Position numbers and translations under genes: made by a program. Shown here piece after piece: positions 29,825-64,000 of a stretch of DNA of 64,000 bases; position 1 is the first letter of the stretch; each line of letters begins with the position of its first letter. Location: contig MFPR01000020.1 of NCBI GenBank assembly GCA_001784175.1, positions 215,248 through 279,247 of the forward strand, in the 5' to 3' direction. Source of the DNA: Candidatus Lindowbacteria bacterium RIFCSPLOWO2_12_FULL_62_27. Its GTDB lineage: Bacteria; Lindowbacteria; 2-12-FULL-62-27. Below the pieces are notes generated by a model, which ran no database searches, was not told where the DNA came from, and worked only from the letters and a program-made list of their open reading frames with translations.

Positions 29825-31717
29825 GTGAAGGAAGAGGGAGAGGCGAGGAACCGGCCGGCGTCGGAGACGCCGGCACTTGGGGCGCCGGAGGCGCTGATCC
29901 GGAATTTCTGCATCATTGCGCACGTCGATCACGGCAAGTCGACGCTGGCCGATCGCATCCTTGAAAAGACGGGCGCGGTGTCGAAGCAGAAAATGCGGGA
30001 CCAGTTCATGGACCAGCTCGACATCGAGCGCGAGCGGGGGATCACGATCAAGGCGGCCGCGGCGCGTCTTCGCTACAGCGCGAGGGATGGGCGTGTCTAC
30101 CAATTGAACCTGATCGACACGCCGGGCCACGTCGATTTTTCGTACGAGGTGTCGCGGAGCCTGGCGGCCTGCGAGGGTGCGGTCCTGGTGGTGGACGCGA
30201 CGCAGGGCGTGGAGGCGCAGACCGTGTCGAATTTTTTCCTCGCCCGGGAAAACGGCCTGACGATCCTCCCGGTCCTCAACAAGTGCGATCTCCCCCAGGC
30301 GGATCCCGCGCGGTCGGCCGGCCAGCTCAAGGAACTCGGCGTGGATACGAGGAACCTTTTGAGAGTAAGCGCGAAGACCGGGTCGGGCGTGGATGATCTC
30401 TTGGAGCGCATCGTGCGTGTTTTTCCGAATCCGCGGCGGGCGCTGGAAGGGCAGGACATATTACAGGCGTTGATCTTCGATTCACACTACGACAATTTTC
30501 GCGGGGTACTGGCCTATGTGCGGATTTTCAGCGGGCGGTTGAAGGCGAACGACCGCGTGCGGTTGATGGCGGCCGGGGTCGAGTCGGTGGTGACGGAGGT
30601 GGGAGTGTTTTCCCCGAGTCCCTTGCGCGTGGGCGGGCTGTCGACCGGCGAAGTCGGATACGTGGCGGGCGGCTGGAAGACGCTGACGGAGGTGGAGGTG
30701 GGCGACACGCTGACGCGCGCGGCCGGCGCCCGCGTGGAGGCGCTGCCGGGCTACCGGCGGATCAAGCCGATGGTGTATGCGAGCCTGTTTGCGTCGGAGG
30801 GCGAGAACTACGAGGCGTTGAAGGTGGCGCTGGAGAAGCTGTCGCTGAATGATTCAGCGCTGACGATCGAGCCGGAGGTTTCGGACGCGCTGGGCTTCGG
30901 CTTCAAATGCGGCTTTCTGGGTCTTCTTCACATGGAGATTGTGTCGGAGCGCCTGTCGCGGGAGCTTGGGATCGAGACGTTGCTCGCGACGCCGACCGTC
31001 GTGTACCGCGCGAAGGTCCGGTCGGGCGACGGCGTGGTGCGCTGGGAGGAGGTGCGGAGCGCGTCGGAGCTCCCGGGCTTGGACCGGCTGGAGGAGATAG
31101 AGGAGCCGCGGATCAAGTCTCTGATTTTCACGCCGACGGAGAGCGTCGGTCCGGTGATGCAGCTTCTGGACGAGCGGCGCGGGAAACTGCAGGAGATGAA
31201 TTATCTGGACCCGCAGAAAGTGATATTGACGTATGATCTGCCACTGTCCGAAGTGATCACGGATTTTTACGACCGCCTGAAGTCTCTCACGCACGGGTTC
31301 GCGTCCTTCGACTATGAGCCGGCCGGCTACGCCGCCGCCGAGATGCGGAAGCTGGAGGTGCTGTTGAACGGCAAGGAGGTGGACGCGCTTTCGCTGATCG
31401 TCCACAAGGACGACGCCTACCGTGTCGCCAAGTCGGTGGCTCAGCGGCTGACCGAGTCGATCCCGCGCCAGCTTTTTGAAGTGGTGGTCCAGGTCGCGTC
31501 GAACGGGCGAATCATCGCAAGGGATACGATCCGGCCCATGCGGAAACACGTCACGGCCAAGTGCTACGGCGGGGACATCACGCGCAAGCGGAAGCTCCTG
31601 GAGAAACAGAGAGAGGGCAAGAAGAAGATGAAGATGATCGGCGCCGTGGAGGTTCCCAAGGAGGCGTTCCTGTCGCTCATGCGGATCGGCCGGTCGGAAC
31701 CGCCGGGTCGGGGTTGA
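29825..31717 (+). CDS. lepA: Translation elongation factor 4 (LepA)
   Basis: Ribosome-associated GTPase. RNFCIIAHVDHGKSTLADRI, DTPGHVDFSYEVSRSLAACEG and NKCDLPQAD are the G motifs; the C-terminal RIGAVEVPKEAFLSLM-like tail (MIGAVEVPKEAFLSLM) and LLEKQREGKKKMK are LepA-specific. The start is GTG 29825, 11 bases after TATGAT; the ~25 residues before ALIRNF are an unusual N-terminal extension. The stop overlaps the next start (ATGA) so LepA is translationally coupled to a penicillin-binding protein. Confidence 0.95.
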   Translation: MKEEGEARNRPASETPALGAPEALIRNFCIIAHVDHGKSTLADRILEKTGAVSKQKMRDQFMDQLDIERERGITIKAAAARLRYSARDGRVYQLNLIDTPGHVDFSYEVSRSLAACEGAVLVVDATQGVEAQTVSNFFLARENGLTILPVLNKCDLPQADPARSAGQLKELGVDTRNLLRVSAKTGSGVDDLLERIVRVFPNPRRALEGQDILQALIFDSHYDNFRGVLAYVRIFSGRLKANDRVRLMAAGVESVVTEVGVFSPSPLRVGGLSTGEVGYVAGGWKTLTEVEVGDTLTRAAGARVEALPGYRRIKPMVYASLFASEGENYEALKVALEKLSLNDSALTIEPEVSDALGFGFKCGFLGLLHMEIVSERLSRELGIETLLATPTVVYRAKVRSGDGVVRWEEVRSASELPGLDRLEEIEEPRIKSLIFTPTESVGPVMQLLDERRGKLQEMNYLDPQKVILTYDLPLSEVITDFYDRLKSLTHGFASFDYEPAGYAAAEMRKLEVLLNGKEVDALSLIVHKDDAYRVAKSVAQRLTESIPRQLFEVVVQVASNGRIIARDTIRPMRKHVTAKCYGGDITRKRKLLEKQREGKKKMKMIGAVEVPKEAFLSLMRIGRSEPPGRG

Positions 31718-33417
31718 TGATTCAGGGAGGCGGCGGCCGGCGGCTGTTCGACCCGTCGCTCAGAATTGGGATTGCGGCCTTCGGGGTGCTGGTGGGGTTT
31801 GCGTTCCTGTTCATCCGGCTTGGGTATCTCCAGCTCGGCCCGGAGTCGGACCGGCTGGCGAACGAGACCCGGCGCGTGTGGATGAACATGTTCGTTCAGC
31901 CGCAGCGAGGCCGGATCCTGGACCGCGAGGGCCGGATCCTCGCGGCGAGCATTGAATGCAAGTCGCTCTATGCGCATCCAACAAAAGTCAAAGAGAAGAA
32001 CCGGCTGGCGCTACTCCTGGCGAAACATGAACTGGAGTCTTTGGAAGAGAGCCTGGAGCGGCTGTCGTCCAGGAGCGCGTTTGTGTGGTTGAGCCGGGGG
32101 ATCGACAAGGAGCGGTGGGACAAGATCAAAGGGGAATTTGCGAAGATCGAAGGGATCGGCGCGCTGCCGGAATGGCGCCGGCGCTATCCGCTGGGCGCCG
32201 TGGGCGCCAACGTTCTCGGATTTGTCGGCGCGGACGGGCACGGACTTGCGGGCGTCGAATACACGATGGACGGCGAGCTGTCGGGAGAGCCGGGGAGCCT
32301 GAGGGTTGAGATCGGCGACCACGGGATGCCCGTGATCCGCGACGCGGCGGGCCGCGACAATCCGGTGTTCAAGGGCCGGGACGAGACGCTGACGATCGAC
32401 GCGTACGTGCAGGAGGCGACGGACCAGGCGCTGTCGTCGACCGTGGAGCGTTTCGAAGCCGCCGGCGGGAGCGTGGTGGTGACGGACGCGCGCGGGGGAG
32501 AGATCCTGGCGATGGGATCGTATCCGACGTTCGATCCGAACCGTTTTACGGAGTATCATCCGGCGCAGTACCGGAACCTGGCCGTGAACGCGATGTTCGA
32601 GCCGGGCTCGACGTTCAAGATCGTGACGATTTCGGTTCTGTGCGCGGACCATCCGGCGGCGCTGGCGGACCATTATTTTTGCAATGGCTACATCAAGATT
32701 CCGGGCGTGCCGCACGGCATCCGGTGTTATGCGTCGCACGGGCCACTGACGTTCCGGACGGCCGTGGAGGCGTCGTGCAACGTGGGGATCATCCGTGCGG
32801 CCCAGCGTATTCCGCAGGAATCGTTCTACCGGGCGGTGCAATCCTTCGGATTCGGAATTCCCTCCGGCGTGGAATTGCCGGGAGAGGAGAAGGGCCTCTT
32901 GAGGAAGCCGTACCGGTGGTCGCTGTCGTCGCAGACATCGATGTCGATCGGTCACGAAGTGGGTGTGACGAACCTGCAGATCGCGATGGCGATGGGGGCG
33001 ATCGCGAACGGCGGGCGGCTGATGAAACCTGCGTTGATCCGCCGTCCCGGCGCCGGTCCCCGCCTGGTCCGGCAGGCGATGCGACCGGAAGTGGCGTACC
33101 AGGTTCGCGATTTTCTGGTTTCTGCCGTGGAAGGCGAGATGGGGACAGGGAAGAAGGCCAAAGTGCCGGGGGTGCGGGTGGGCGGCAAGACCGGCACGGC
33201 GATGGTGCCGGACCCGAAGGTTGGGGGGTATGATCCGAACCGTTTTATTTCCTCCTTTGTCGGCTTTTTTCCGGCCGAATCGCCGCGGTACGTGATTTCG
33301 GTGGTGATTCACGAGCCGGCCCCGGGCATCGGGCATTTCGGCGGAGATGTGGCGGCGCCCGCATTTTCGAAAGTGGGGACGGCGCTTCTCAAGCTGATCG
33401 TCCCGCCGCGGACATGA
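31717..33417 (+). CDS. Class B penicillin-binding protein (FtsI/PBP2 type transpeptidase)
   Basis: A single N-terminal membrane anchor (IGIAAFGVLVGFAFLFIRLGYLQL) is followed by the dimerisation domain with RGRILDREGRILA. The transpeptidase domain has the active-site FEPGSTFKI (SxxK), EASCN (SxN) and VGGKTGTAM (KTG). 566 residues. Motif pattern favours FtsI/SpoVD over PBP2/MrdA. It is not in a division-cell-wall cluster; it lies between lepA and two maf genes with ATGA overlaps on both sides. Whether it serves septation or elongation cannot be told. Confidence 0.9.
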   Translation: MIQGGGGRRLFDPSLRIGIAAFGVLVGFAFLFIRLGYLQLGPESDRLANETRRVWMNMFVQPQRGRILDREGRILAASIECKSLYAHPTKVKEKNRLALLLAKHELESLEESLERLSSRSAFVWLSRGIDKERWDKIKGEFAKIEGIGALPEWRRRYPLGAVGANVLGFVGADGHGLAGVEYTMDGELSGEPGSLRVEIGDHGMPVIRDAAGRDNPVFKGRDETLTIDAYVQEATDQALSSTVERFEAAGGSVVVTDARGGEILAMGSYPTFDPNRFTEYHPAQYRNLAVNAMFEPGSTFKIVTISVLCADHPAALADHYFCNGYIKIPGVPHGIRCYASHGPLTFRTAVEASCNVGIIRAAQRIPQESFYRAVQSFGFGIPSGVELPGEEKGLLRKPYRWSLSSQTSMSIGHEVGVTNLQIAMAMGAIANGGRLMKPALIRRPGAGPRLVRQAMRPEVAYQVRDFLVSAVEGEMGTGKKAKVPGVRVGGKTGTAMVPDPKVGGYDPNRFISSFVGFFPAESPRYVISVVIHEPAPGIGHFGGDVAAPAFSKVGTALLKLIVPPRT

Positions 33418-34865
33418 GGCCGGGGAATACGGAGGCGCTCCGCCGGAACCATCCGGAGTTGCTGGCGCTGCTGGAACAGACCGCGCCGCTGACCACCGCG
33501 CATCTTGAGCCGAGCCGTCGCGGGCCGGAGACGCTCGTCTGGACGGACACCGGCGGCCGGCGGCGTTTTTTGCACAGCCAGGTCGATCCGGTCGAGGAGG
33601 CGCGGAAGCTGGCGGCGGCCGCGATTGCGCCGGGCATGACGCGCGCGCTGGTGGTCGGGCACGGCGCCGGCCACGAACTGCGCGCGCTCGCGGCCCGGGT
33701 GGGTGAAGTGTGGGTGCTGGCGGCGAACGCGCCGCTTCTGCGGCTCCTGTGCGACCAAACGGATCTCTCGGACATTTTTTCCAATCCTGCCGTGCGCTGG
33801 ATCTTTGGCCGGCCCTCGAACATGGCGCGGCAGATGGCGGAGTTGATGAAGGATTTGTCCGGCCGGGAGGGCGAGATCGCCGTGGTGATCCATCCCCCGT
33901 TTGTGGAGACCGTCCCGGAGGAATTCTCGTCGGTGGTGGACGTCGTTCGAAAAATTCAGAGCGGCCGGGAGACGGAGGAGGAGTTGCGGCCGGTGGCGGC
34001 CGGGAATTTCCGGCGGAACCTGCCGGCGCTGGCGGCTCCGGGCGTTTCGAGCCTGTTTGGTCTGGCGCGAGGCCGACCTGTGGTGGTGGCCGGCGCGGGG
34101 CCGTCGCTGGACGACGCGATCGAGCCGCTGCGGGGGTTGTATTCATTTGCGTATCTCATCGCCGTGGACACGGTGGCGGAAGGGCTGGCGGAGATGGACA
34201 TGCCCGCAGACCTGATCGTGAGTCTGGATCCGCGCCCGGATTCGATGATTCATTTTCACTCCCGTGCGGACCGGCCGAGCCGCCCGGAGATTCTGGTGTT
34301 CACGCCGATCACGTATCCCGACATTGTGCGGGCATTTGAAGGCCGCCGGATGGTGGCCATTCCCCGGCGGCATTTTTTTTTGCATCCGATTGAAGCGGAC
34401 CTGTCGTGCAAGGGTCTATTGCGGAGCGGTGGGAGCGTATCGATTCTGGCCGCATCATTGGCCGCCGCGATGACGCCGGCCTATGTATGCCTGGCCGGTG
34501 TTGACTTTCAGGCGCGCCCGCGCCATTTGTACAGCCGCCTGTCATCGTATCTGCGTCGCGCGCGTGCGGAGTTGAGCCGGGTTTCGAGTTTCGAGAACGT
34601 CGAGCACGATTTTCTGTCCAAGGAACTTAGAAAAACGCCGACCCAGTCCACCGCGCCGAGGTTGGAGCATTACGCCTCGGATTTCCGGTTGATGCTGAGA
34701 GAAACGCCCGTGCCGTTCTACACGCTGGGCCCGTCCCTGGAAGGCGTGCGTCGCGGCGCGCTCCCCTGCGTCGCGGCGCCGCGAATGGACCGGCCGATCC
34801 GCGTTCCGGAGGAAGGAGGTCCGCTGCCATCGACGCTCATGCAGCGGCTGGGCATTTCGCCATGA
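33414..34865 (+). CDS. Maf/MptE-like (DUF115) protein 1, motility-associated glycosyltransferase family
   Basis: A 483-residue protein with the 6-hydroxymethylpterin-pyrophosphokinase-like domain: PVVVAGAGPSLDDAIEPLRG, IAVDTVAEGLAEMDMPADLIVSLDPR, then GGSVSILAASLAAAMTPAYVCLAGVDF. Flagellin nonulosonic-acid transferases (Maf) have this domain. The N-terminal ~200 residues form a second Rossmann-like domain (ALVVGHGAGHELRAL). It overlaps the PBP stop and the next maf start by four bases each. Flagellin itself and nonulosonate synthesis genes are not in the window, so the target is inferred. Confidence 0.83.
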   Translation: MRPGNTEALRRNHPELLALLEQTAPLTTAHLEPSRRGPETLVWTDTGGRRRFLHSQVDPVEEARKLAAAAIAPGMTRALVVGHGAGHELRALAARVGEVWVLAANAPLLRLLCDQTDLSDIFSNPAVRWIFGRPSNMARQMAELMKDLSGREGEIAVVIHPPFVETVPEEFSSVVDVVRKIQSGRETEEELRPVAAGNFRRNLPALAAPGVSSLFGLARGRPVVVAGAGPSLDDAIEPLRGLYSFAYLIAVDTVAEGLAEMDMPADLIVSLDPRPDSMIHFHSRADRPSRPEILVFTPITYPDIVRAFEGRRMVAIPRRHFFLHPIEADLSCKGLLRSGGSVSILAASLAAAMTPAYVCLAGVDFQARPRHLYSRLSSYLRRARAELSRVSSFENVEHDFLSKELRKTPTQSTAPRLEHYASDFRLMLRETPVPFYTLGPSLEGVRRGALPCVAAPRMDRPIRVPEEGGPLPSTLMQRLGISP

Positions 34866-36409
34866 GCTATCTGGAAGCGAATCTCGAGGCGCTGGCGACC
34901 GTCCAGCCCATGTTGGCGGAGGAGCTTCGCCTCCATCCAACGGCGCGGCACATTGAACTTATGCCGCTCGCGGATGAAATCCCGACCCTGGACGCGATCA
35001 TCGTGGTGGGACTACCGTCCTGGGAAAGCCTTCTGTCCATCCTTGGCAGCCGGATCCCGGTGGTCATTCTGTCGCACGACGCACTGCCGGAGATCAGAAC
35101 GTACCTGACGCTGCTGGACATCCGGCAGGCGATTCTGTCCGGGAGAATCTCCTTTGCGGTCGGCGAGGACGGTGTGCTGCAGGTCCTGAACGACATTTTC
35201 GGCACGCTGTACCGCCGGCGGATCACGCTGTTCGGCCGGACGGGGTCGGACAGCCACGGGCGGGCGCTGAAGGAGCTGCAGTTTTTCGACACGCTCTGTT
35301 CGTCGAACCGCGCGACGCTGGACCAATTTGCGGAGGAGTGGCAGAACAACGTGTCGGACAATCTGCAGGATTTTCTGTCCGGCCCTTTTTTGGAGGACCA
35401 GGCGGGCCGATGGTCGGGCGGTGAAGCGGTGGTGGTGGCGGCCGGGCCAAGCTTGGATGAAGTGGACATTCCGGCGGCGTTCAAGGGGGCGCCGGTGGTG
35501 GCCTGTGACACGGCGGTTCCGGTGCTGGGCATGAGGGGGGTGGCGCCGGACCTGATCGTGACGCTGGATTCGTCGGTGTCCAACCAGGCCTATTTGCAGA
35601 ATCTGCCGGAGGAGATTTATCAGCGCAGTATTCTGTGCGCGACGCCCTTGGTGTCACGGCGCGTGTATCAGCGTTTTTCGAACGTCCTGTTTTATAGTTA
35701 CGGGCATCCGACGCTCGACCGTCTGCGGGCCCAAGGGCTGCCATTTCAACCGCTGGCAAGCGGCGGGAGCGTGGCGCTCACCTCGGTGGACATCACGCGG
35801 CTTTTGGGCGCGCGGCGGGTGTATCTGCTCGGATTCGATTTTCAGTTTTATCCCTTTCGCACGCACGCGCGAGGCACCGGCGCGGCGCTCAGGGCAGTGC
35901 GGTCGTCGAGCCGGCTGCTGCCCGTAGAGTTGTTCGTGTATGAGTATCAGAACGAGCTAGAGGCCACCCCGACAGGGGAGCATGCGCGGGCGGCGCTGAT
36001 GGACAGGAAATTCCAGAAATGGCGCGAATGGCTCGAGCTCTATGTCCGGAACAACGATATAGAACTTTTTCAAATGTCCCGGAACACCGCGCCGATTGCA
36101 GGCGTGCGGCCGGGCAAGCCGGAAGGAGGCGGGGGTTACAGCCGTCCGAACCTGCGTCGCCGGCCGATCCTGCCGGACGTGGAGCGGGATATGAAGTTTC
36201 TGTTGAAGGAACTCGACATCGCGCTGACGGTGTCGCCGGAGGATATCCCGCGGCAGGTATCGGGCCTACCGCGTGTGAATCAGAGTCTCGGATATGTGCT
36301 GGCGTGGTTATCGGACAAGCCTGCGTCGGAGTCGCGGGAGAAACTGCGTGCGATCCTGTTGAGGTATCGGACCGGCGTCCAAGCCGCGCTGGGCGGTCAG
36401 GGCCGGTAG
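34862..36409 (+). CDS. Maf/MptE-like (DUF115) protein 2
   Basis: Paralogue of the preceding gene, 515 residues: AVVVAAGPSLDEVDIPAAFKG, VAPDLIVTLDSSVSNQAYLQ, PLASGGSVALTSVDITRLLGARRVYLLGFDFQF. The two proteins are clearly divergent outside these motifs, so they may act on different sugars or form a hetero-complex. The 3' end overlaps the convergent TPR lipoprotein gene by 13 bases. Confidence 0.82.
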   Translation: MSYLEANLEALATVQPMLAEELRLHPTARHIELMPLADEIPTLDAIIVVGLPSWESLLSILGSRIPVVILSHDALPEIRTYLTLLDIRQAILSGRISFAVGEDGVLQVLNDIFGTLYRRRITLFGRTGSDSHGRALKELQFFDTLCSSNRATLDQFAEEWQNNVSDNLQDFLSGPFLEDQAGRWSGGEAVVVAAGPSLDEVDIPAAFKGAPVVACDTAVPVLGMRGVAPDLIVTLDSSVSNQAYLQNLPEEIYQRSILCATPLVSRRVYQRFSNVLFYSYGHPTLDRLRAQGLPFQPLASGGSVALTSVDITRLLGARRVYLLGFDFQFYPFRTHARGTGAALRAVRSSSRLLPVELFVYEYQNELEATPTGEHARAALMDRKFQKWREWLELYVRNNDIELFQMSRNTAPIAGVRPGKPEGGGGYSRPNLRRRPILPDVERDMKFLLKELDIALTVSPEDIPRQVSGLPRVNQSLGYVLAWLSDKPASESREKLRAILLRYRTGVQAALGGQGR

Positions 36410-37008
36410 AGGGCTTTTTGCTGCCGGTAAAGCGAGTTGTCGGTATCGAGGGCGATGGCGGTGTCGATGGCCGTGATCGCCGCGGCGATATTGTTGAGCT
36501 TGTACTCGAGTTCCGCGAGGGTGCTCCATGCGGCGGCCTTGTCGGCGTCCCCGATTTTTTCGACGGCCGTGCGTGCGAATCCGCGCGCCGCGTCGAGTTT
36601 TTCGTTGCGGGCGCAGTAGACGTTGGCGGCGATCAGAAGCGTGATGGGGTTGCCGCCGTCCATCGAGACGGCCTTCTCCGTCGCCTCCCGGGCCTCGTCG
36701 AGTTTGCCGAGTTCGTAATACGCGCGCGCGAGGTTGACGTGTGGCGCGGCGTAGGGTGTCTTGGAGAGGACGCCCGCCAGCTTGAAAAAGGGGATGGCCT
36801 CCTCGACACGATCGAGGTCCTGGAGGACGACTCCCAGATTGTTGTGCGCGATCGGATCCCTCGGCCGGAACTTGACAGCCTTGCGGTAGAACTGCTCCGC
36901 TCCCTCGAGGTCGCCTTTCTGGTACGCTTCGTACCCCTTGCCGACATAGTTCACGAGGGTGATGCAGGCCGAAAGGCCAAGTAGCGCCACCCATGCCAGA
37001 CGTTTCAT
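36397..37008 (-). CDS. TPR-repeat lipoprotein
   Basis: A 203-residue protein with a lipobox (VALLGLSAC, Cys at residue 15) followed by about five tetratricopeptide repeats (KGYEAYQKGDLEGAEQFYRKAV; AHNNLGVVLQDLDRVEEAIPFF; PHVNLARAYYELGKLDEAREATEKAV and so on). It is probably anchored in the inner leaflet of the outer membrane as a scaffold. TATCCT six bases before ATG 37008 may be a leaderless -10. The start overlaps head-to-head with the next gene. Confidence 0.85.
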   Translation of the reverse strand: MKRLAWVALLGLSACITLVNYVGKGYEAYQKGDLEGAEQFYRKAVKFRPRDPIAHNNLGVVLQDLDRVEEAIPFFKLAGVLSKTPYAAPHVNLARAYYELGKLDEAREATEKAVSMDGGNPITLLIAANVYCARNEKLDAARGFARTAVEKIGDADKAAAWSTLAELEYKLNNIAAAITAIDTAIALDTDNSLYRQQKALYRP

Positions 37009-38036
37009 GGACCAAGGATACCAAAGACCGGCGGAAATTTCTCCGAAACGTTACGATCTGCCTCGGCGTCCTCCTGACGGCGGGGGCGCTGGAGATGCTG
37101 ATTCTTGCGCAGGGCCCGCGGTCGCCGGTTGCTCCGTATGAATCCGATTACCTTCGCGGCGACGCGCCGGCCTACCATTGGACTCCGATGAAACGGGTGG
37201 TGTCGGCGCTGACGGATGGAACCGGCGTTTCGATGTCGATTCAGCGTCAGCGAGCGGTGGCTTCGGTCTTGAGATTGGCCGGCCTTCTGGCCCTCTTGGT
37301 CTGGGCGATCCGGGAGATGGGATGGGTCGCGGGCCCGGCCGCGTTTGTCATTTTCGTGTCTTTACCGCCGACCCTTCCGGTCCTGACGCGACTGGACCCG
37401 TGGATGGACAGTGTTTGCTACAGTTGGATCGCGCTTCTTGGCTGGAGTCTGGCGCGAGTAGATGTCGGCGGGAGAGGGGGGATATTTGTCGCCGGTGTTT
37501 TATGCGGCCTTGCGGTGGACTCAAAGGCGACGGCGCTCCTGACGCTTGCGCCGGCGTCGGTGATGTACGGCCGGCGCATCGCGTTGCCGGCCGTCGGTGT
37601 TTTTCTTTTGGGCGTGATGGGCGGGATGGGCCTATCCGCGCCCGCGTGGCTGCTTCATCCCTCCCTGCTTCTCGCGCACCTTCAATACTGGCAATCCGTC
37701 AATGCTCAGCTTCCGGCGTTGCCGGTCTTTTTCCCCTGGACCGCGCTGGGGGCGGGCGTTCCGTGTGTCGTATGGATTCTTGCGATCTATGGCGCGTGTA
37801 CGCTCCGGCGTCAAACTCCGATCCGCACCGCTGGAATCCTTTTCGCCGTTCCTGTCGTGTTCTTCATGGTGTATCGTTCGGTTCCGCCCGAAGGCGTCCG
37901 GCACCTGTACATGGCGCTGCCCTTCCTGTCGGCCGTGGCCGCCTCCGGTTGGATGCGGGTCAATCCGCCCCTGAAAGTACTGTCCGTCGTTGCGTGGCTG
38001 CTCGAACTGAACTGGAGAGTATTTACGCCGCCGTAG
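36993..38036 (+). CDS. Polytopic membrane protein, GT-C glycosyltransferase-like
   Basis: 347 residues with eight or more hydrophobic segments (for example VTICLGVLLTAGALEMLIL, GPAAFVIFVSLPPTLPVL, VFLLGVMGGMGLSAPAWLL). A periplasmic loop after the first segment (APYESDYLRGDAPAYHW) and LAVDSKATALLTLAP are reminiscent of the ArnT/PMT (GT39) class that use lipid-linked sugars. No decisive catalytic motif is seen. ATG 36993 would overlap the divergent lipoprotein gene by 16 bases, so a start further in (ATG 37095) is possible. Confidence 0.6.
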   Translation: MPDVSWTKDTKDRRKFLRNVTICLGVLLTAGALEMLILAQGPRSPVAPYESDYLRGDAPAYHWTPMKRVVSALTDGTGVSMSIQRQRAVASVLRLAGLLALLVWAIREMGWVAGPAAFVIFVSLPPTLPVLTRLDPWMDSVCYSWIALLGWSLARVDVGGRGGIFVAGVLCGLAVDSKATALLTLAPASVMYGRRIALPAVGVFLLGVMGGMGLSAPAWLLHPSLLLAHLQYWQSVNAQLPALPVFFPWTALGAGVPCVVWILAIYGACTLRRQTPIRTAGILFAVPVVFFMVYRSVPPEGVRHLYMALPFLSAVAASGWMRVNPPLKVLSVVAWLLELNWRVFTPP

Positions 38037-38038
38037 AG

Positions 38039-38863
38039 TCACTCCCTGGATTTTCGCAAATCAGCGCTTGCAGCTTTGAGGCGTTCGCGTTCGGTGCGGG
38101 TGAGGCTGTTCATGCCGGACCTGGCGATTTTGTCGAGGAGGGTGTCGAGCTCGGCGGCGGAGAGCCGGAGTTTTTCGGATTTGCGTCGTTCGTATTTCTG
38201 GCGGACCGACGATACCCATCGCACGACGGCGTTGGGCCGCGCCGATTCACGCCGCTGGTTGAACGCAAGTTTTCGCGTGACCCAGAAGAACACGAGACCG
38301 GTCGCCAGCCCGCCGAGATGGGCCACATGCGCGACGTTTCCGGCGCCTTCGATGCTGTAGATGAGGTCGATCAATCCAAAAATGACGATGAACCACCGGG
38401 CCTGGACGGGCACCGGGAAAAACCACAGATAGACGGGCCGGTACGGGAAGAGGACCGCAAAGGCCACGAGCACGCCGTAGAGCGCGCCGGAGGACCCGAG
38501 AATGATGCCGTTCGGGTACGCGATGCAGGCGAGGAGCGCTGCGCCGAATCCGCAGAGCGTGTAATAGGTGAAGAACTTTCTGGACCCCATCACCTGCTCG
38601 ACATCGGGGCCGAACATGAAAAGCCCGAACAGATTGAAGAGTACGTGCATCACATCGAAATGGAGGTACATGTAGGTAAAGAACTGCCAGACCATGCCGC
38701 CTTCGAGAGCCTGCGCCGGCGCCAGGGCCAGCAGGTTCCACGGCACCCAGCGGGTCGTGAGGAACTTCAGCAGATACAAAATGGCGTTGACCCAGAGGAG
38801 TCTGCGGACGACGGGCGTGAGCCACGACCCGATGCCGGATTCTCCGCGGATGGCGTTGTTCAT
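38039..38863 (-). CDS. Rhomboid family intramembrane serine protease
   Basis: 274 residues with about six transmembrane segments. The catalytic Ser is in GIILGSSGALYGVLVAF (GxSG) and the His in NVAHVAHLGGLATGL; the MYLHFDVMHVLFNLFGLFMFG loop with the HxxxN pattern is typical. The C-terminal ~70 residues are charged and cytosolic. Start MNNAIRGESG at ATG 38863; the longer open frame upstream is a LysR shadow. Substrates are unknown. Confidence 0.92.
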   Translation of the reverse strand: MNNAIRGESGIGSWLTPVVRRLLWVNAILYLLKFLTTRWVPWNLLALAPAQALEGGMVWQFFTYMYLHFDVMHVLFNLFGLFMFGPDVEQVMGSRKFFTYYTLCGFGAALLACIAYPNGIILGSSGALYGVLVAFAVLFPYRPVYLWFFPVPVQARWFIVIFGLIDLIYSIEGAGNVAHVAHLGGLATGLVFFWVTRKLAFNQRRESARPNAVVRWVSSVRQKYERRKSEKLRLSAAELDTLLDKIARSGMNSLTRTERERLKAASADLRKSRE

Positions 38864-38894
38864 GATGTAAGTGTACAGCCGTCGCGCGTCGGAT

Positions 38895-39830
38895 TCAAGT
38901 TTGTGACGGCTTGAACCCGCACGCGGCCTCCATGAACCGGATGACGGATTGCGGGGTGTACCGTTCCGTCGAATAGTAAACGCCGGCGTCCCGTTCGGGC
39001 AGAAGGCGCGCCGGCAGGGGTCGTGCGGCCAGGGAGGCCGGGATGATGTCCCGGGCGGATCCGTCGACGACCGCCGCGCCGAGTCCGGCGGCGGCATATC
39101 GAATCCGCGCCTCCGACGAGGTGACCTCGATGAAACTTTTCAGCCGCTCGGCCGTCGTCACCTTCGACAGAATCGCCATGATCTCGATGCAGGTTCCGGA
39201 GTTTCGGGAGGGCAGAATGAGACTTGCGGCGGCCAGTTTGCCGGCGGTGATCGTTCCACCCGCCAGGGGATGTCCCTTGGGCATCACCAGGAGTCTGGGG
39301 AATGTCCATAGGCGCTTGAAGGCGACGCCGTCGGGCGGCGGTCGCCGATGGGACACGGCGAGGTCGATGTCGGCCGCCTGAAGCATGCGTATCAAGTCGT
39401 CGCCGGACCCGCAGCGGACGCGGATCGACGCGCGGCCGTGCTTGGCCCTGAACCGGCCGATCAGCTTCGGCAACAGGGTCTCCGCGAAACTGGATTTCGT
39501 TCCGATCGTGACGACCCCGGCCGCGCGGCCCTTGCCCGCCTCGTCCAGCGCCAGGAGTTTCAGGGATTCGACCATTCCCAGAATCCGTCCCGCCTCGCGG
39601 TAGACCTTTTCGCCAAAGGCCGTCCGCCGCGTCCGGTCGCGCGGCTCGAACAGCTTGCCGCCCAGGATCTCCTCCAGCCGCATGACGGCCCGCGACACCG
39701 CCGGCTGCTCGATCCCCAGCTCCCGGGCCAGTCCCCGGTACGTTTGGCGCCCGGCCACCGCCGAAAAGCAGCGGATCTGCTGCAGCGTCACCGCCCCGAT
39801 GTGGTGCGCCTCAAACGTCGATGATTTCAT
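38895..39830 (-). CDS. LysR-family transcriptional regulator
   Basis: The N-terminal HTH is LQQIRCFSAVAGRQTYRGLARELGIEQPAVSRAVMRLEEILGGKLFEP, followed by the linker helix and a substrate-binding domain (GVVTIGTKSSFAETLLPKLIGRF; GHPLAGGTITAGKLA). 311 residues. It is divergent from the zinc-ribbon/ssb pair, with back-to-back promoters that interleave at 39840-39886, so it may control that operon. The effector is unknown. Confidence 0.92.
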   Translation of the reverse strand: MKSSTFEAHHIGAVTLQQIRCFSAVAGRQTYRGLARELGIEQPAVSRAVMRLEEILGGKLFEPRDRTRRTAFGEKVYREAGRILGMVESLKLLALDEAGKGRAAGVVTIGTKSSFAETLLPKLIGRFRAKHGRASIRVRCGSGDDLIRMLQAADIDLAVSHRRPPPDGVAFKRLWTFPRLLVMPKGHPLAGGTITAGKLAAASLILPSRNSGTCIEIMAILSKVTTAERLKSFIEVTSSEARIRYAAAGLGAAVVDGSARDIIPASLAARPLPARLLPERDAGVYYSTERYTPQSVIRFMEAACGFKPSQT

Positions 39831-58784: not shown

Positions 58785-59081
58785 TCACGTCAGTCTCGAC
58801 GGGTCAAACTGCCGCGCACCGTGGAAAACGGTGAGTATCTCCACGCACTTGTCTTTGAGCCTGTAAACGAGCCGATAACTGCCTATAATGGCCTCGCGAA
58901 TTACGGGATCGCCGATCTCGGGAACGATTCGACCGGATTCGGGAAACAGGGTGATTCGATCGATGGCGCGGAAGGTGTCAACGGCGAAGAGGCGCGCGTA
59001 GTGGGAGGAGTCCCTGGCGATGAATTTGACGATGGACTCGAGGTCTTGCGCCGCCTGAAGTGTCCATCTTACTTCAACCAT
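58785..59081 (-). CDS. parE: RelE/ParE family toxin (second locus)
   Basis: 98 residues with the ParE pattern MVEVRWTLQAAQDLESIVKFIARDS, YARLFAVDTFRAIDRITLFPESGRIVPE, then IREAIIGSYRLVYRL and ILTVFHGARQF. Most ParE proteins target gyrase and RelE mRNA; the branch is not resolved here. The start overlaps the antitoxin by 13 bases. The repeat-bordered position suggests the module was acquired as a unit. Confidence 0.9.
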   Translation of the reverse strand: MVEVRWTLQAAQDLESIVKFIARDSSHYARLFAVDTFRAIDRITLFPESGRIVPEIGDPVIREAIIGSYRLVYRLKDKCVEILTVFHGARQFDPSRLT

Positions 59082-59251
59082 CGCTTCATCTTTTGCCGGA
59101 TCTTCTCGTCTGAAACTGTTTGACGCGCGTCAGCCTGCCGGATGCCCTTTTCAATCTTGGCAAGAAACAACAGCCTCTCCATCGCGTCTTCGTAGGAGGC
59201 GTCATCCGGAAGACTCCTGACCGCTTTGATGACTTTCTGCTTGACCGTCAT
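59069..59251 (-). CDS. Antitoxin partner of the second ParE
   Basis: 60 residues from ATG 59251: MTVKQKVIKAVRSLPDDASYEDAMERLLFLAKIEKGIRQADARQTVSDEKIRQKMKRWL, the pattern of short antitoxins paired with ParE (a helical DNA-binding part and a toxin-wrapping tail). The longer open frame upstream is dropped because the promoter -10 lies six bases before this ATG. Confidence 0.85.
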   Translation of the reverse strand: MTVKQKVIKAVRSLPDDASYEDAMERLLFLAKIEKGIRQADARQTVSDEKIRQKMKRWLK

Positions 59252-59257
59252 GAATAA

Positions 59258-59286
59258 AGAATACCCGGCGGCGGGTTGAAATTCAA
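59258..59286 (-). promoter_or_regulatory. Promoter of the second toxin-antitoxin module (leaderless)
   Basis: TTGAAT (59281-59286), 17-base spacer, TATTCT (59258-59263), then six bases to ATG 59251 on the minus strand: the transcript should begin at the A of the start codon. Confidence 0.55.
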
Positions 59287-59325
59287 GCGCATATTCCCGT
59301 TCCTGCGGTCCGACGCGGATTTTCG

Positions 59326-59442
59326 GCCGGAAAAACGAAGGCGTCACCCTCGTCGCCGGGGCGGCTCCGGCAGGACCGACCGGCGATAACTCAAGAATCA
59401 GGGTTCAGTCCCTTGATTCTGCGGCATATAAATTGGAACCGT
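59326..59442. repeat. Direct repeat, right copy, flanking the second toxin-antitoxin module
   Basis: Matches 58625-58772 as described there, with an 81-bp perfect core (59362-59442). It lies between the antitoxin promoter and the IS1634-type element. Bases 59443-59479 are T-rich and hold nothing identifiable. Confidence 0.9.
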
Positions 59443-59479: not shown

Positions 59480-61482
59480 TTAACCGGACTTACGCACGAA
59501 AGTGGCGAAAACGCGCGTAAATAGGCCGTAGAGCGATTTTTCGGGTCAGGTCTGTACTACATTTGGCAATCCGGCCTCACTTTTTCCTGGAGAGGGATTC
59601 GTAGATGGGCGAGGAGTCTTCGTTGCTGTTCATCCGGGCGGCTCACCCTTCGCAGTCGCAGTAATTTCCCGTCTGTTGTCGGAAGCATAATATCCCCGCT
59701 TTTGATTTGGGACAGAATTCGCAACGCTTTTGCCGGAGAGACATCGTAGTCCTGATCAAACAGAACGCCCGAGTTTTTCAGTTGGTGTTTGAGCGTCACC
59801 CACAACGCGTAGCCGAGGAACGCCACAAGAATGTGGGCCTGCACCCGTTTTTTATCGTGATGCCAAATCGGTCGCACGGATAAATCCCCTTTGATCGCCC
59901 GGAATGCCGCCTCGGCCTCCGTCAACTGGATATACATTTCCCAAACCTTGCCGGCGTCCAGTTCGCCGAGGTTGAAGGTTCGCAGCAGGTACGTCCCGTC
60001 CGTCAGTTCTGCCCATTTCAGGCGTTCGGCGTGATGCCACCATCTCATCGTCTTTTGATGTCGTCCCTTCAGTTCCCACCGATAAAATTTGCCCGCACTT
60101 GGATACCGTCCCAACAGACGGCCCACCGCCACATGAATTTTTTTCGTCTCCTTGATCTGCCCTTTCTCGACTCGCCGCCGCAGTCCATCCAATCCCTTCT
60201 CCATCGCCTTCATTACACGTCGCCGCATCGCGCTCTCTTTCTCCCTCCTCCCCGTCGACCGCGCCACGACAAACGTCTCATGCCGCTTCACGCGCGGCAC
60301 CCGCAATACCTCCACCTCCTCCCTCACCTTCTCCCAACTCTTCGACAGCAGTTCCGTCTCCAACGCCTTCATCTCCGACCGCCTCACCCCAACCACATAC
60401 GGCATCTTCCGCCGACGCAGCATCCTCAGATTCTTCTCCGATGTCACTCCCCGATCAAACACCCAGATCCGACGCGCGCGGCCGTATCTGCGCTCGACCG
60501 CATTCAAAATCTCTTTCAGCGTCGTCACGTCCCGCCGGTTCCCGTCGAACACTTCGTACGCCAGCGGAAACCCCTCCGCACTCACAACCAGCGCCACCAC
60601 CACTTGCTTGCAATCCGACCGATGATCCCGCGAGTATCCTCGCTGGGCCTGTGGATTGCCCGCAGCAGCTCCCTCAAAATATGTGCTCGTCAGGTCGTAC
60701 AGCAACAGGTCATACGTGATCCCGAACAACTCCCCATACCGCTTTTTCAGAAACGTCTCCAGCGCCTCCTTGTGTTCGTGCATCAGATCCAGACATCGAT
60801 ACAACCGGTCCGTGTTGATCTTCTCTTCCGCCACCTCCAGTATGTCGTCCAAGGCCGTCTGCCGATACCAGGTCTGTTCAATCCTCAATTCGCTGCCCGG
60901 CCCGCACAACCGGTTGATCGCCAGTACCGCCGCGATCCGACTCCACGGCACATCCGCGTCCAGTCCGTCCAGACGCTGGGCGTAAAACCGATCCAGTCCC
61001 AGTCTCCGCCATAACATCCATCCCGCGTACACGTCCCCGTAATCCCGCGGCCGCTCCCAGTACACCTCATTCAGCCGCACCCGGGCCACGTTCGACTCCT
61101 TTGGAACCTCCGCCGCATCGTCTCCAAACAGAGAAAGCTCCCGGCTCTCTCCGCGGCCATCGATCACTTCGATCGTTTTTTGCCATTTGGATTTGCCAGT
61201 CCCGTTGATCTCACCCAGATAGCAGACCGTCCGGTGACGCGGCCCTCGGTCCGTCCGCACCGTCTCGCAGATCGAATAGTAGGCGTGATCCTTGCCGTCC
61301 TTGAATCGCGAATGCGTCTTCAGAAACATCGTATACACATTGCCACATTTTTCCGGCTCGGCAAGAAGGTAGGTCTGTACTACATCGCTTTTTCAGCCTT
61401 TTTGGAAAATTCTCAGAGGGAAAATAGAAAAACGAGCGTCAAAAATTCTATTTTTGGCCGTTTGGTGCGTAAGTTCGGTTAA
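59480..61482 (-). mobile_element. IS1634-family insertion sequence, apparently intact
   Basis: About 2.0 kb with imperfect terminal inverted repeats. The left end reads TTAACCGGACTTACGCACGA; the complement of the right end reads TTAACCGAACTTACGCACCA, and the match continues less perfectly for about 12 more bases. If the outer TTAA is the duplicated target, the inverted repeats begin CCGRACTTACGCAC. A second, shorter inverted similarity, GGTCTGTACTACAT, is a direct repeat at 59549 and 61372, just outside the transposase ends. The element carries one full-length transposase. Confidence 0.8.
59557..61338 (-). CDS. IS1634 family (IS4-like DDE) transposase
   Basis: 593 residues, full length. Catalytic acids: LLLYDLTSTYFEG (first Asp), RRIWVFDRGVTSEKNLRML (second Asp) and YIQLTEAEAAFRAIKGDLSVRPIWH (Glu in the YREK-like signature). 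The N-terminus has the family's RTVCYLGEINGTG. No frameshift or internal stop, so the element may be active. Codon use is somewhat less GC-biased than that of its neighbours. Confidence 0.93.
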   Translation of the reverse strand: MYTMFLKTHSRFKDGKDHAYYSICETVRTDRGPRHRTVCYLGEINGTGKSKWQKTIEVIDGRGESRELSLFGDDAAEVPKESNVARVRLNEVYWERPRDYGDVYAGWMLWRRLGLDRFYAQRLDGLDADVPWSRIAAVLAINRLCGPGSELRIEQTWYRQTALDDILEVAEEKINTDRLYRCLDLMHEHKEALETFLKKRYGELFGITYDLLLYDLTSTYFEGAAAGNPQAQRGYSRDHRSDCKQVVVALVVSAEGFPLAYEVFDGNRRDVTTLKEILNAVERRYGRARRIWVFDRGVTSEKNLRMLRRRKMPYVVGVRRSEMKALETELLSKSWEKVREEVEVLRVPRVKRHETFVVARSTGRREKESAMRRRVMKAMEKGLDGLRRRVEKGQIKETKKIHVAVGRLLGRYPSAGKFYRWELKGRHQKTMRWWHHAERLKWAELTDGTYLLRTFNLGELDAGKVWEMYIQLTEAEAAFRAIKGDLSVRPIWHHDKKRVQAHILVAFLGYALWVTLKHQLKNSGVLFDQDYDVSPAKALRILSQIKSGDIMLPTTDGKLLRLRRVSRPDEQQRRLLAHLRIPLQEKVRPDCQM

Positions 61483-61499: not shown

Positions 61500-61847
61500 A
61501 TGTCCGACAATGGTAACGGCGAAAGCCGGTATTACGTGATTTTGAAAAACGACGACGTCCACACGTTTAGCGAGGTCATCCGGATCCTGGAGCGGGTTCC
61601 GGGGAAGTCCCATGTCAGCGCGACGAACGTGGCCATCGCCGCCCATACCCTGCAGTTCGCCGCTGTCTATCGCGGTGACCTTGCGGGCGCCAATGTCCTG
61701 CACGCCGCGCTGACAAAACTCAGCCAAGACTACGAGCGCCTTGCCGACCACTGCATCGAATCGGAAGACAGCAAAAAATTTATCAAAGCCATCCGCCACT
61801 TCCGCACCGGCGACCGGCAGTTGGAAAAACTGCGAAAGCTTCTGTAA
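61500..61847 (+). CDS. ClpS-like adaptor protein 1
   Basis: 115 residues. YYVILKNDDVHTFSEVIRIL and AIAAHTLQFAAVYRGDLAGANVLHAAL follow the ClpS fold. Asn17-Asp18 and His49 correspond to the N-degron-binding Asn34-Asp35 and His66 of E. coli ClpS, with the same 32-residue spacing. The C-terminal ~40 residues are helical and charged, beyond the ClpS core. ATG 61500 has GGGAGG seven bases upstream. The IS element ends just four bases before that site, so any native promoter may have been displaced. Clp-adaptor function is inferred from motif only. Confidence 0.72.
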   Translation: MSDNGNGESRYYVILKNDDVHTFSEVIRILERVPGKSHVSATNVAIAAHTLQFAAVYRGDLAGANVLHAALTKLSQDYERLADHCIESEDSKKFIKAIRHFRTGDRQLEKLRKLL

Positions 61848-61932
61848 TGTTCAGAATGAGGTTCAGCATCTTGCGGTAGAAGTCGTGGATGAAGTCTGTC
61901 GACGGCGACGGCAAAAAGCAAATGTTAAAATG

Positions 61933-62355
61933 TTAGTATCCGTCCCCACCCACCCCGGGGGCCTTTTGCCGTTCACCGAGAATCTGGTGAACCAAATCCA
62001 AAAAGTCCCTGATGACGAATGGTTTTTTAAAATACCCGGCCAGATCCCGCTTGATATTCATCCCTTCATGTTTCAACTGTCCGGCTGTTGTTTCCCTGGG
62101 TTGGGCTGAAATCATCATCACAGAAATCCGGCGCAATGCTTTTTTAGATTTCAGCATCGACAGGAATTTCACCCCGCCGATTCCCCCCGAACGCATGACA
62201 TCTTGAATGAACAGATGGACGGTCCGGCGCCGGAGGATCGACAGCGCTTCGTCCTCGTCCGTCGTTCCAACGAATTCATAGCCGGCATCTTCGATGATCG
62301 CGCGGTATATTTTCAACGTGTCGCGGTCGTCATCAAGGCACAATATCTGTTTCAC
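61933..62355 (-). CDS. Stand-alone receiver-domain response regulator
   Basis: 140 residues, receiver only: MKQILCLDDDRDTLKIYRAIIEDAG (acidic pocket), VHLFIQDVMRSGG (phosphoacceptor Asp), VMMISAQ (Thr/Ser switch) and AGYFKKPFVIRDFLDLV (Lys). There is no output domain, so it should act by protein contact. The start overlaps the preceding 88-residue gene by ATGA, coupling it to the ClpS-like operon. Its kinase is not identified. Confidence 0.88.
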   Translation of the reverse strand: MKQILCLDDDRDTLKIYRAIIEDAGYEFVGTTDEDEALSILRRRTVHLFIQDVMRSGGIGGVKFLSMLKSKKALRRISVMMISAQPRETTAGQLKHEGMNIKRDLAGYFKKPFVIRDFLDLVHQILGERQKAPGVGGDGY

Positions 62356-62618
62356 ACGTGTATGGGCTTGTTTCCAATATATACGGATGCCAGGGCATTG
62401 GCCACTCGGTTGTATAATTCTGGCGGGATTTCATCGCCGACATTAATTTTTGCAGGCTCGGGGGCCAGCTTCGGATCCCCATAGGTGATCCCGCTCGGCA
62501 GATGTTCGACGGCCTCAATTGCCCGAACATCTTCCCATACGCCCGCCACCACGGGCGCCGCGTGTGCTCGTTCATCATAGTGGAGTTTAAAAATATCGCG
62601 CGGGAGGGTAGATGTCAC
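62352..62618 (-). CDS. Small protein of unknown function between the ClpS-like and receiver genes
   Basis: 88 residues: MTSTLPRDIFKLHYDERAHAAPVVAGVWEDVRAIEAVEHLPSG... then EIPPELYNRVANALASVYIGNKPIHV. Soluble, mixed alpha/beta, no recognisable motif. It is a real gene by context: four-base overlaps with both neighbours (start with clpS-like 2 stop, stop with receiver start). It may bind one of those partners. Confidence 0.65.
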   Translation of the reverse strand: MTSTLPRDIFKLHYDERAHAAPVVAGVWEDVRAIEAVEHLPSGITYGDPKLAPEPAKINVGDEIPPELYNRVANALASVYIGNKPIHV

Positions 62619-62968
62619 GACTCGGTGGGCTTTGTCTTCATCAGGCGCCTGATCAGATCATGATAGTGCGTCAGGTCGACCACGCTTACCCTAAAACCGG
62701 CGATGCGGAGGGTGCGGTAGATTTTGCGGGCGCGGTTGACGGGGCCGCCGTAGACGACGGAGAGGCCGGCGAAGTGGGTTGACATGGCGACGTTGAACCC
62801 GAAGACCGGAGGCAGGCGGCATTCGAGCGAGATGGCGGCGATCACCTCGTCGAACGAGTGGCGATCGTCGTTGTGGAGGATGACGAAGAATGGCCTGCGA
62901 GTGTCGGGGACGCGGCCGCCGTCGGCCGGCCGGCTGTTGTCGTCGCCGGATGCGTCATGGAGAGACAT
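62615..62968 (-). CDS. ClpS-like adaptor protein 2
   Basis: 117 residues from ATG 62968, which has AAAGGGGG eight bases upstream. A disordered N-terminus (~24 residues) precedes PFFVILHNDDRHSFDEVIAAI and NVAMSTHFAGLSVVYGGPVNRARKIYRTLRIAGFRVSVVDL. Asn33-Asp34 and His65 keep the 32-residue spacing of the ClpS N-degron site. It is only distantly similar to ClpS-like 1, 0.8 kb away on the other strand. It is the second gene of a four-gene operon (63248 to 61933). Confidence 0.75.
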   Translation of the reverse strand: MSLHDASGDDNSRPADGGRVPDTRRPFFVILHNDDRHSFDEVIAAISLECRLPPVFGFNVAMSTHFAGLSVVYGGPVNRARKIYRTLRIAGFRVSVVDLTHYHDLIRRLMKTKPTES

Positions 62969-63248
62969 ATTGCATGCCCCCTTTGTCCGACACGGCCGAT
63001 GTGTCGATGTCACCGATGGCCAGCGACTCAAGACGGATGGTCTCCAACCTGGGAGTGCTTACTCGCGCAGAGGCCTCGGCGACGTAGAGCCGCGCCTGGT
63101 TCCAGCCATGGACGGCCTTTTCGATCACGAGAAATGCCAGGCTGCGGCCGTCGACGTAGTTGCCGATGGACGTGAATGTCACGAGGATCCACAGCACCGC
63201 GAAGAACCGGAGGAATTCCTTGAATGGCCAAAACAGAAATCGCAACAT
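62955..63248 (-). CDS. Small single-pass membrane protein heading the ClpS-like operon
   Basis: 97 residues: MLRFLFWPFKEFLRFFAVLWILVTFTSIGNYV is a membrane segment with basic residues before it, followed by ~60 soluble residues (SLAFLVIEKAVHGWNQARLYVAEASARVSTPRLETIRLESLAIG). ATG 63248 has AAAGGGGG eight bases upstream, the same arrangement as clpS-like 2. The 3' end overlaps clpS-like 2 by 14 bases. No family recognised; it may tether the system to the inner membrane. Confidence 0.6.
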   Translation of the reverse strand: MLRFLFWPFKEFLRFFAVLWILVTFTSIGNYVDGRSLAFLVIEKAVHGWNQARLYVAEASARVSTPRLETIRLESLAIGDIDTSAVSDKGGMQYVSP

Positions 63249-63298
63249 CTGTCACACCCCCTTTGGGTATTTTGTTTCAGAAAGCGTCTGATCAGGAT

Positions 63299-63319
63299 AA
63301 ACGCGGGATTTCCGCGTTT
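63299..63319. terminator. Stem-loop in the divergent intergenic region
   Basis: AAACGCGG (63299-63306), loop GATTT, CCGCGTTT (63312-63319), then two more T. It sits between two divergent genes (63248 and 63402), so it is more likely an operator or attenuator than a gene-end terminator. Confidence 0.4.
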
Positions 63320-63401
63320 TTCCGGTTTGTCATTGCCGGAGAAATAATGGAAATTCACCTGAAATCATCGTTTATTCAAGTTGGAAGGAGGTGGAGTGAA
63401 G

Positions 63402-64000
63402 ATGAGCCTCGATGCGACGATGTGGGAGAAGGCGGACGCAAGTTATCAGAATTACCTCGCGTATATCGCCCGGAAGACGGACCGGTTTGAATTGACGCCG
63501 GCAGATCTTCTGTACGTAACCAATTTCAAAGGAGGAAACGCCGCCATCCATGAGACGGAGGCAACGATTCAGGACAAGCTGGTTGTCTATGCCGCCGCGA
63601 TGAAGAGTTTGGAAGCAACGTTTGGCGGGAGGGCGATCAGCGACCTGAACAAAGAGGAACTCGGGGTTCTCAAAACCCGCGCGCAAGAATTCATCATGCT
63701 CTCAACGCGGGACCCGAGCGCCATCGATGGGTTCAAATGCGTCTACATGGCGGCTCTCCTCCATTTTTATTTTCCGCGGCTGACGCCCATCCTGGACAAA
63801 CGGGTACTTGCGGGACTCGGGCTGCTTGTGAAATACGACAGGGACCGGCAGGTGACGGATATTTGGAAGCACTATTCGACACTGATTGAAGGATTTCACG
63901 TGTATTTAAAACTCATGCCCGCTAAGATAATTTCACGACGTTTGGAAGCGGGAGAGGGATTTCCAGCGTCTGCGGGCTTTGCAGAATCGACGCTTCCGCC
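63402..64000 (+). CDS. Unknown protein, 3' end outside the window
   Basis: 199 codons visible from ATG 63402, which has a strong Shine-Dalgarno AAGGAGGT nine bases upstream. The protein starts MSLDATMWEKADASYQNYLAYIARKTDRFELTPADLLYVTNFKGGNAAIHE and includes AALLHFYFPRLTPILDKRVLAGLGL. It is largely helical, soluble, and I do not recognise a family. It is divergent from the membrane protein/ClpS-like operon and may belong to the same accessory block. The composition is normal for the window. Confidence 0.7.
   Translation, partial: MSLDATMWEKADASYQNYLAYIARKTDRFELTPADLLYVTNFKGGNAAIHETEATIQDKLVVYAAAMKSLEATFGGRAISDLNKEELGVLKTRAQEFIMLSTRDPSAIDGFKCVYMAALLHFYFPRLTPILDKRVLAGLGLLVKYDRDRQVTDIWKHYSTLIEGFHVYLKLMPAKIISRRLEAGEGFPASAGFAESTLP

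Follow-up and report, generated by a model that had tools for sequence, protein, structure and literature searches.

Two divergent ClpS-type adaptors beside a receiver and an FlhB_C-like protein in a Candidatus Lindowbacteria genome

Introduction

Two genes for ClpS-like proteins lie at one end of a contig of Candidatus Lindowbacteria bacterium RIFCSPLOWO2_12_FULL_62_27, together with genes for a lone receiver domain, a protein of 88 residues and a membrane peptide. This arrangement raises the question of whether the five genes encode an N-degron delivery system with its own regulatory input, or genes with no joint function that have come to rest side by side. Here, the family, fold and key residues of each product, the conservation of the neighbourhood and the Clp machinery of the genome are considered in turn, and the competing explanations are then weighed.

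Results

Organization of the locus

Within the window (the whole stretch of 64,000 nucleotides analysed), the ClpS region begins after an IS transposase and continues up to the contig end. The gene for ClpS1 (61500–61847, plus strand, 115 aa) is convergent on the receiver gene, from whose stop codon it is separated by 85 bases. On the minus strand, the genes for the membrane peptide (62955–63248, 97 aa, one hydrophobic segment), ClpS2 (62615–62968, 117 aa, ATG start), the 88-aa protein (62352–62618, GTG start) and the single-domain receiver (61933–62355, 140 aa, GTG start) follow one another in that order, with overlaps of 14, 4 and 4 bases that support translational coupling and make their co-expression likely. 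These overlaps agree with the minus-strand operon described in the initial annotation, the piece of which extended to 63401 and so beyond the actual start of the first operon gene at 63248. The sequence AAAGGGGG is located upstream of the ClpS2 ATG. Codon-position GC is coding-like for all five genes, being weakest in that for the 88-aa protein, and each of the five proteins has a homologue elsewhere. The GC content of the region is 51–62%, as against 60–68% in the preceding 5 kb. Promoter and terminator predictions at the locus were no more frequent than in shuffled sequence; PADLOC returned only a weak match of the receiver to PD-T4-6 among the window proteins, and PHROGs, beyond the receiver, gave nothing specific for the proteins of the ClpS region.

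Three features flank this region. Just before it lies a RelE-like toxin gene with a PHROG toxin match, accompanied by a small upstream gene (58785–59347, minus strand), and a DDE transposase gene (59557–61338, minus strand) separates this pair from the ClpS region. At the other end, an open frame (63405–64000, plus strand) with a sub-threshold DUF6308 match diverges from the operon and runs off the contig.

ClpS1 and ClpS2 are divergent members of the ClpS family

Both proteins score above the PF02617 cut-off of 23 bits (ClpS1 at 45.3 and ClpS2 at 27.9 bits), in line with their initial description as ClpS-like, and they share 36% identity over 64 aa. The Asn, Asp and His of the alpha-amine-binding site are represented by N17, D18 and H49 in ClpS1 and by N33, D34 and H65 in ClpS2, and are thus retained in both at about 30% identity. 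The 32-residue spacing between Asn and His that had been noted previously is borne out in both and equals that of E. coli ClpS; the N-D-D motif is likewise kept (N17-D18-D19 and N33-D34-D35).

AlphaFold2 (AF2) predicts a ClpS fold for both adaptors, a fold whose absence the initial annotation had named as a refuting outcome, with mean pLDDT values of 82 for ClpS1 and 84 for ClpS2 and of 93–97 in the ClpS2 core; the alignments behind these models included other ClpS sequences. Solved ClpS structures are the top Foldseek matches of both models at E values of about 6e-6 (5.9e-6 for ClpS1), and the ClpS2 model superimposes on solved Mycolicibacterium ClpS with a VIA Z of 14.9 and an rmsd of 1.1. 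The fold is common to L7/L12, and L7/L12 C-terminal domains match the ClpS2 model with Z values of 8–10.

Several positions outside the triad have changed. Specifically, the Gly that lies three residues after the His in 33/33 other ClpS proteins is retained as G68 in ClpS2 and replaced by Q52 in ClpS1, and the Lys or Arg that usually comes next in those 33 proteins is absent from both. The positions of E. coli E79 and K84 are occupied by D and N in ClpS1 and by P and R in ClpS2. The pocket positions corresponding to Caulobacter Thr51, Met53 and Met75 carry His, Phe and Ala. In the ClpS tree, both are long branches near ClpS proteins with the motif DDVHTFDEVI from Planctomycetota, KSB1, Ignavibacteriota and others, a placement no finer than the DDxHTF group, given the few columns and low resolution of the tree. 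Sequence and predicted structure mark both proteins as true, though rapidly evolving, adaptors of the ClpS type.

The operon partners of ClpS2

The 88-aa protein, listed as an unknown in the initial annotation, matches TIGR00789 (E 3.6e-4) and, below the cut-off of 24.4 bits, PF01312 (17.4 bits, E 0.0028). A local profile built from eight FlhB_C domains of the phylum's three genomes gives it 44 bits, compared with 8.9 for the best of 5000 shuffles of its own sequence, and hhalign aligns it to FlhB_C at 97.9% over 72 columns. The NPTH autocleavage site, which FlhB proper carries in each of the three genomes, is absent, as is the membrane half, and the protein is therefore FlhB_C-like and not an FlhB. 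Sequence comparison identifies it as homologous to the FlhB cytoplasmic domain; FlhB acts as the switch in flagellar export.

The receiver scores 46.1 bits against PF00072 (cut-off 30.2) and retains, as read from the sequence, the phosphorylation residues D8-D10, D52, S83 and K110, consistent with the lone receiver domain reported earlier. Its closest relatives within the phylum are 31–35% identical. The parallel with CpdR suggested in the initial annotation thus stands as far as a phosphorylatable lone receiver is concerned and fails on model score, since the receiver reaches 25 bits against the CpdR model NF046022, for which the cut-off is 180; assignment as CpdR by this score is ruled out.

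The membrane peptide belongs to a lineage-specific family, with one paralogue in the same genome (E 2e-11), one homologue in the genome G001 (E 1.5e-6) and none in the 76 other genomes searched. Both relatives come after two related lipoprotein-like genes (L065:4142-6869 in the same genome, G000, and L066:5000-6745 in G001), and in the same genome these two are preceded by a gene that matches FlgT_C only weakly (18.2 bits, cut-off 27).

Conservation and genome context

No FlhB_C-like gene or lone receiver was found near ClpS at 62 other distinct places (68 loci, some taken twice) within flanks of 1.5–5 kb, so that any link at greater distance would escape detection; three long response regulators were the only regulators of this kind in those flanks. 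Of these loci, 23 came from a contig scan and the others from searches of 78 and 386 genomes. ClpS was not found in the other two genomes of the phylum (81–88% complete), which is sampled by three genomes only, and relatives of ClpS2 were absent from the plasmids, phages and viral contigs searched. The operon is accordingly a singleton so far: its gene order was found neither at the 62 ClpS places nor in the two incomplete sister genomes. This is the outcome that the initial annotation had named as refuting its reading, although the phylum is very sparsely sampled. The parts are genuine, and their combination is new and was found in one genome only. Tandem ClpS-like genes occur among the other ClpS places only in G006, an unrelated genome; there, on contig C11 (L020:1468-2042), two divergent copies lie, by reading, between genes for a membrane protein and for a PDZ/tail-specific-protease-like protein.

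Beyond ClpS1 and ClpS2, no PF02617 gene was found in the assembly (4.39 Mb, 94% complete). The genome encodes ClpC, with two Clp_N repeats, a UVR motif and an LGF loop, together with ClpB and ClpP, and ClpX adjoins ClpP by reading. Leu/Phe-tRNA transferase was not found in the genome, so that one usual source of N-degrons seems to be missing. Full flagellar FlhB and FlhA are also encoded, and flagellar genes were recognized by reading at 10–15 kb of the window.

Soluble FlhA_C and FlhB_C proteins elsewhere in the lineage

Soluble fusions of FlhB_C to the FlhA cytoplasmic domain are present in the same genome and in G001. On contig C35 of the former (31144-39230; L069:1145-9231), genes for a FlhB_C-FlhA_C-DUF6745 protein of 932 aa, a ClpX-like AAA+ protein with FlhA_C of 854 aa and a TPR protein of 828 aa lie side by side, and these export-gate domains sit outside any secretion system. 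Among the matches listed, full-length FlhB_C-FlhA_C proteins occur only in these two of 386 genomes, and nearly all other matches listed start at the FlhA_C half, in frames of ordinary FlhA length. Further soluble proteins with FlhA_C and/or FlhB_C are encoded in the two genomes at L065:15227-18106, L070:1-2950, L071:1207-3147 and L143:2736-4037. One of these genes precedes an AAA ATPase gene; by reading, two of the proteins have a HEXXH metalloprotease-like motif (AVHELAHCFW) and two have Tat-signal-like N-termini (RRxFxQ). A literature search for soluble FHIPEP/FlhB fusions returned nothing relevant. The 88-aa operon protein may be one more instance of such recruitment of FlhA_C and FlhB_C domains in soluble form.

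Discussion

Proposed function and alternatives

The best explanation, which we hold tentatively and with somewhat less than even confidence, is that ClpS1 and ClpS2 serve as N-terminal-residue adaptors for ClpC-ClpP, with ClpS2 restricted by its operon partners. Both adaptors would bind the exposed N-terminal residue of client proteins and, provided that they dock on ClpC, would hand these clients to the ClpC-ClpP protease. The membrane peptide, the FlhB_C-like protein and the receiver, made together with ClpS2, would probably limit when, where or for which clients it acts. This explanation is preferred because the ClpS scores, folds and triad are kept in both proteins, because no other ClpS was found in a genome that has ClpC, ClpP and ClpX, because the pocket substitutions resemble those of Leptospira ClpS1, and because receiver-type Clp adaptors (RssB, CpdR) and a binary ClpS adaptor (ClpF-ClpS1) exist. 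Counted against it are the failure to find the operon conserved in any of the genomes searched, the lack of a detectable Leu/Phe-tRNA transferase, the loss of the Gly in ClpS1 and of the Lys in both, the changed E79/K84 positions and the presence of other ClpS sequences in the AF2 alignments. That control is exerted by phosphorylation through the operon partners, as one component of this explanation, is doubtful.

Alternatively, the five genes may be real, foreign or decaying genes without joint function, neighbours by chance at a contig end rich in mobile elements. We regard this as unlikely, though marginally the least so of the alternatives: the gene order is not conserved, a transposase and a RelE-like toxin gene adjoin, the GC content falls below that of the preceding sequence and both ClpS proteins lie on long branches, whereas three successive overlapping intact frames, a kept triad and a kept phosphorylation site would hardly be expected in decay.

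In another, also unlikely account, the operon is a regulatory one tied to export or to the flagellum. The membrane peptide and the FlhB_C-like protein would link ClpS2 and the receiver to the sorting of exported proteins, flagellar ones for instance, or to their turnover, and ClpS2 would be responsible for degradation. FlhB_C homology, the full flagellar FlhB and FlhA, the flagellar genes of the window, the position of the membrane-peptide paralogue after lipoprotein-like genes and the weak FlgT_C-match gene, and the fusion of other FlhB_C-like domains of the lineage to FlhA_C all point this way. However, the FlgT_C match is sub-threshold, the soluble FlhA_C/FlhB_C proteins lie outside flagellar loci and the FlhB_C-like protein lacks NPTH.

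A more elaborate proposal, in which the receiver and the FlhB_C-like protein form co-adaptors of a phosphorylation-switched ClpS complex that gate ClpS2 and choose its clients, within a lineage-wide joining of export-gate domains (FlhA_C, FlhB_C) to Clp-type AAA+ proteins, appears improbable at present. Least probable is that the ClpS folds are binding or oligomerizing modules that do not recognize N-degrons, like the L12/ClpS domains inserted in beta-propeller ternary systems (PMC7159879, a conflict-systems paper that mentions ClpS once and FlhA or FlhB never), for although L7/L12 domains also match the ClpS2 model, ClpS structures match it clearly better and the amine-binding triad is retained in both proteins.

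Should the operon function as one unit, the proposed ClpC-ClpP adaptors would represent N-degron adaptors with a dedicated signalling input, undescribed in the literature found. Joint function would also suggest that Clp-type machines have taken over cytoplasmic domains from the flagellar export gate in order to bind clients. The soluble FlhB_C-FlhA_C and ClpX-like set outside the window is a stronger lead than the ClpS operon itself, and the wider set makes such reuse directly testable.

Comparison with known systems

Receiver-type Clp adaptors are known in RssB and CpdR of the ClpXP system, where a phosphorylatable receiver is likewise genetically tied to Clp adaptor function. RssB has a domain besides its receiver, and CpdR acts alone; unlike the receiver described here, neither is known to be linked to ClpS. 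In the chloroplast ClpF-ClpS1 binary adaptor, the partner of ClpS is proposed to influence delivery to ClpC, and ClpF carries UVR and YccV domains, in place of the receiver and FlhB_C domains encoded alongside ClpS2. None of these precedents has the composition of the operon. The FlhB_C domain of the 88-aa protein is shared with the cytoplasmic domain of FlhB/YscU, the stand-alone FlhX and YlqH; in contrast to FlhB/YscU, the protein has neither NPTH nor a membrane half and lies outside a secretion locus.

Two ClpS proteins per genome are already known from Leptospira and cyanobacteria, and in Leptospira clpS2 lies beside clpA. The ClpS1/ClpS2 pairs of these organisms and ClpS2 of Agrobacterium share with the present proteins the same fold, the N/D/H triad and the occurrence of two copies per genome, as well as an altered gatekeeper residue and a ClpC encoded in the genome. 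The pocket positions that carry His, Phe and Ala here are His, Tyr and Ala in Leptospira ClpS1. Compared with these known two-ClpS genomes, the present pair is much more diverged, and one of its copies resides in an operon with a receiver, an FlhB_C-like protein and a membrane peptide.
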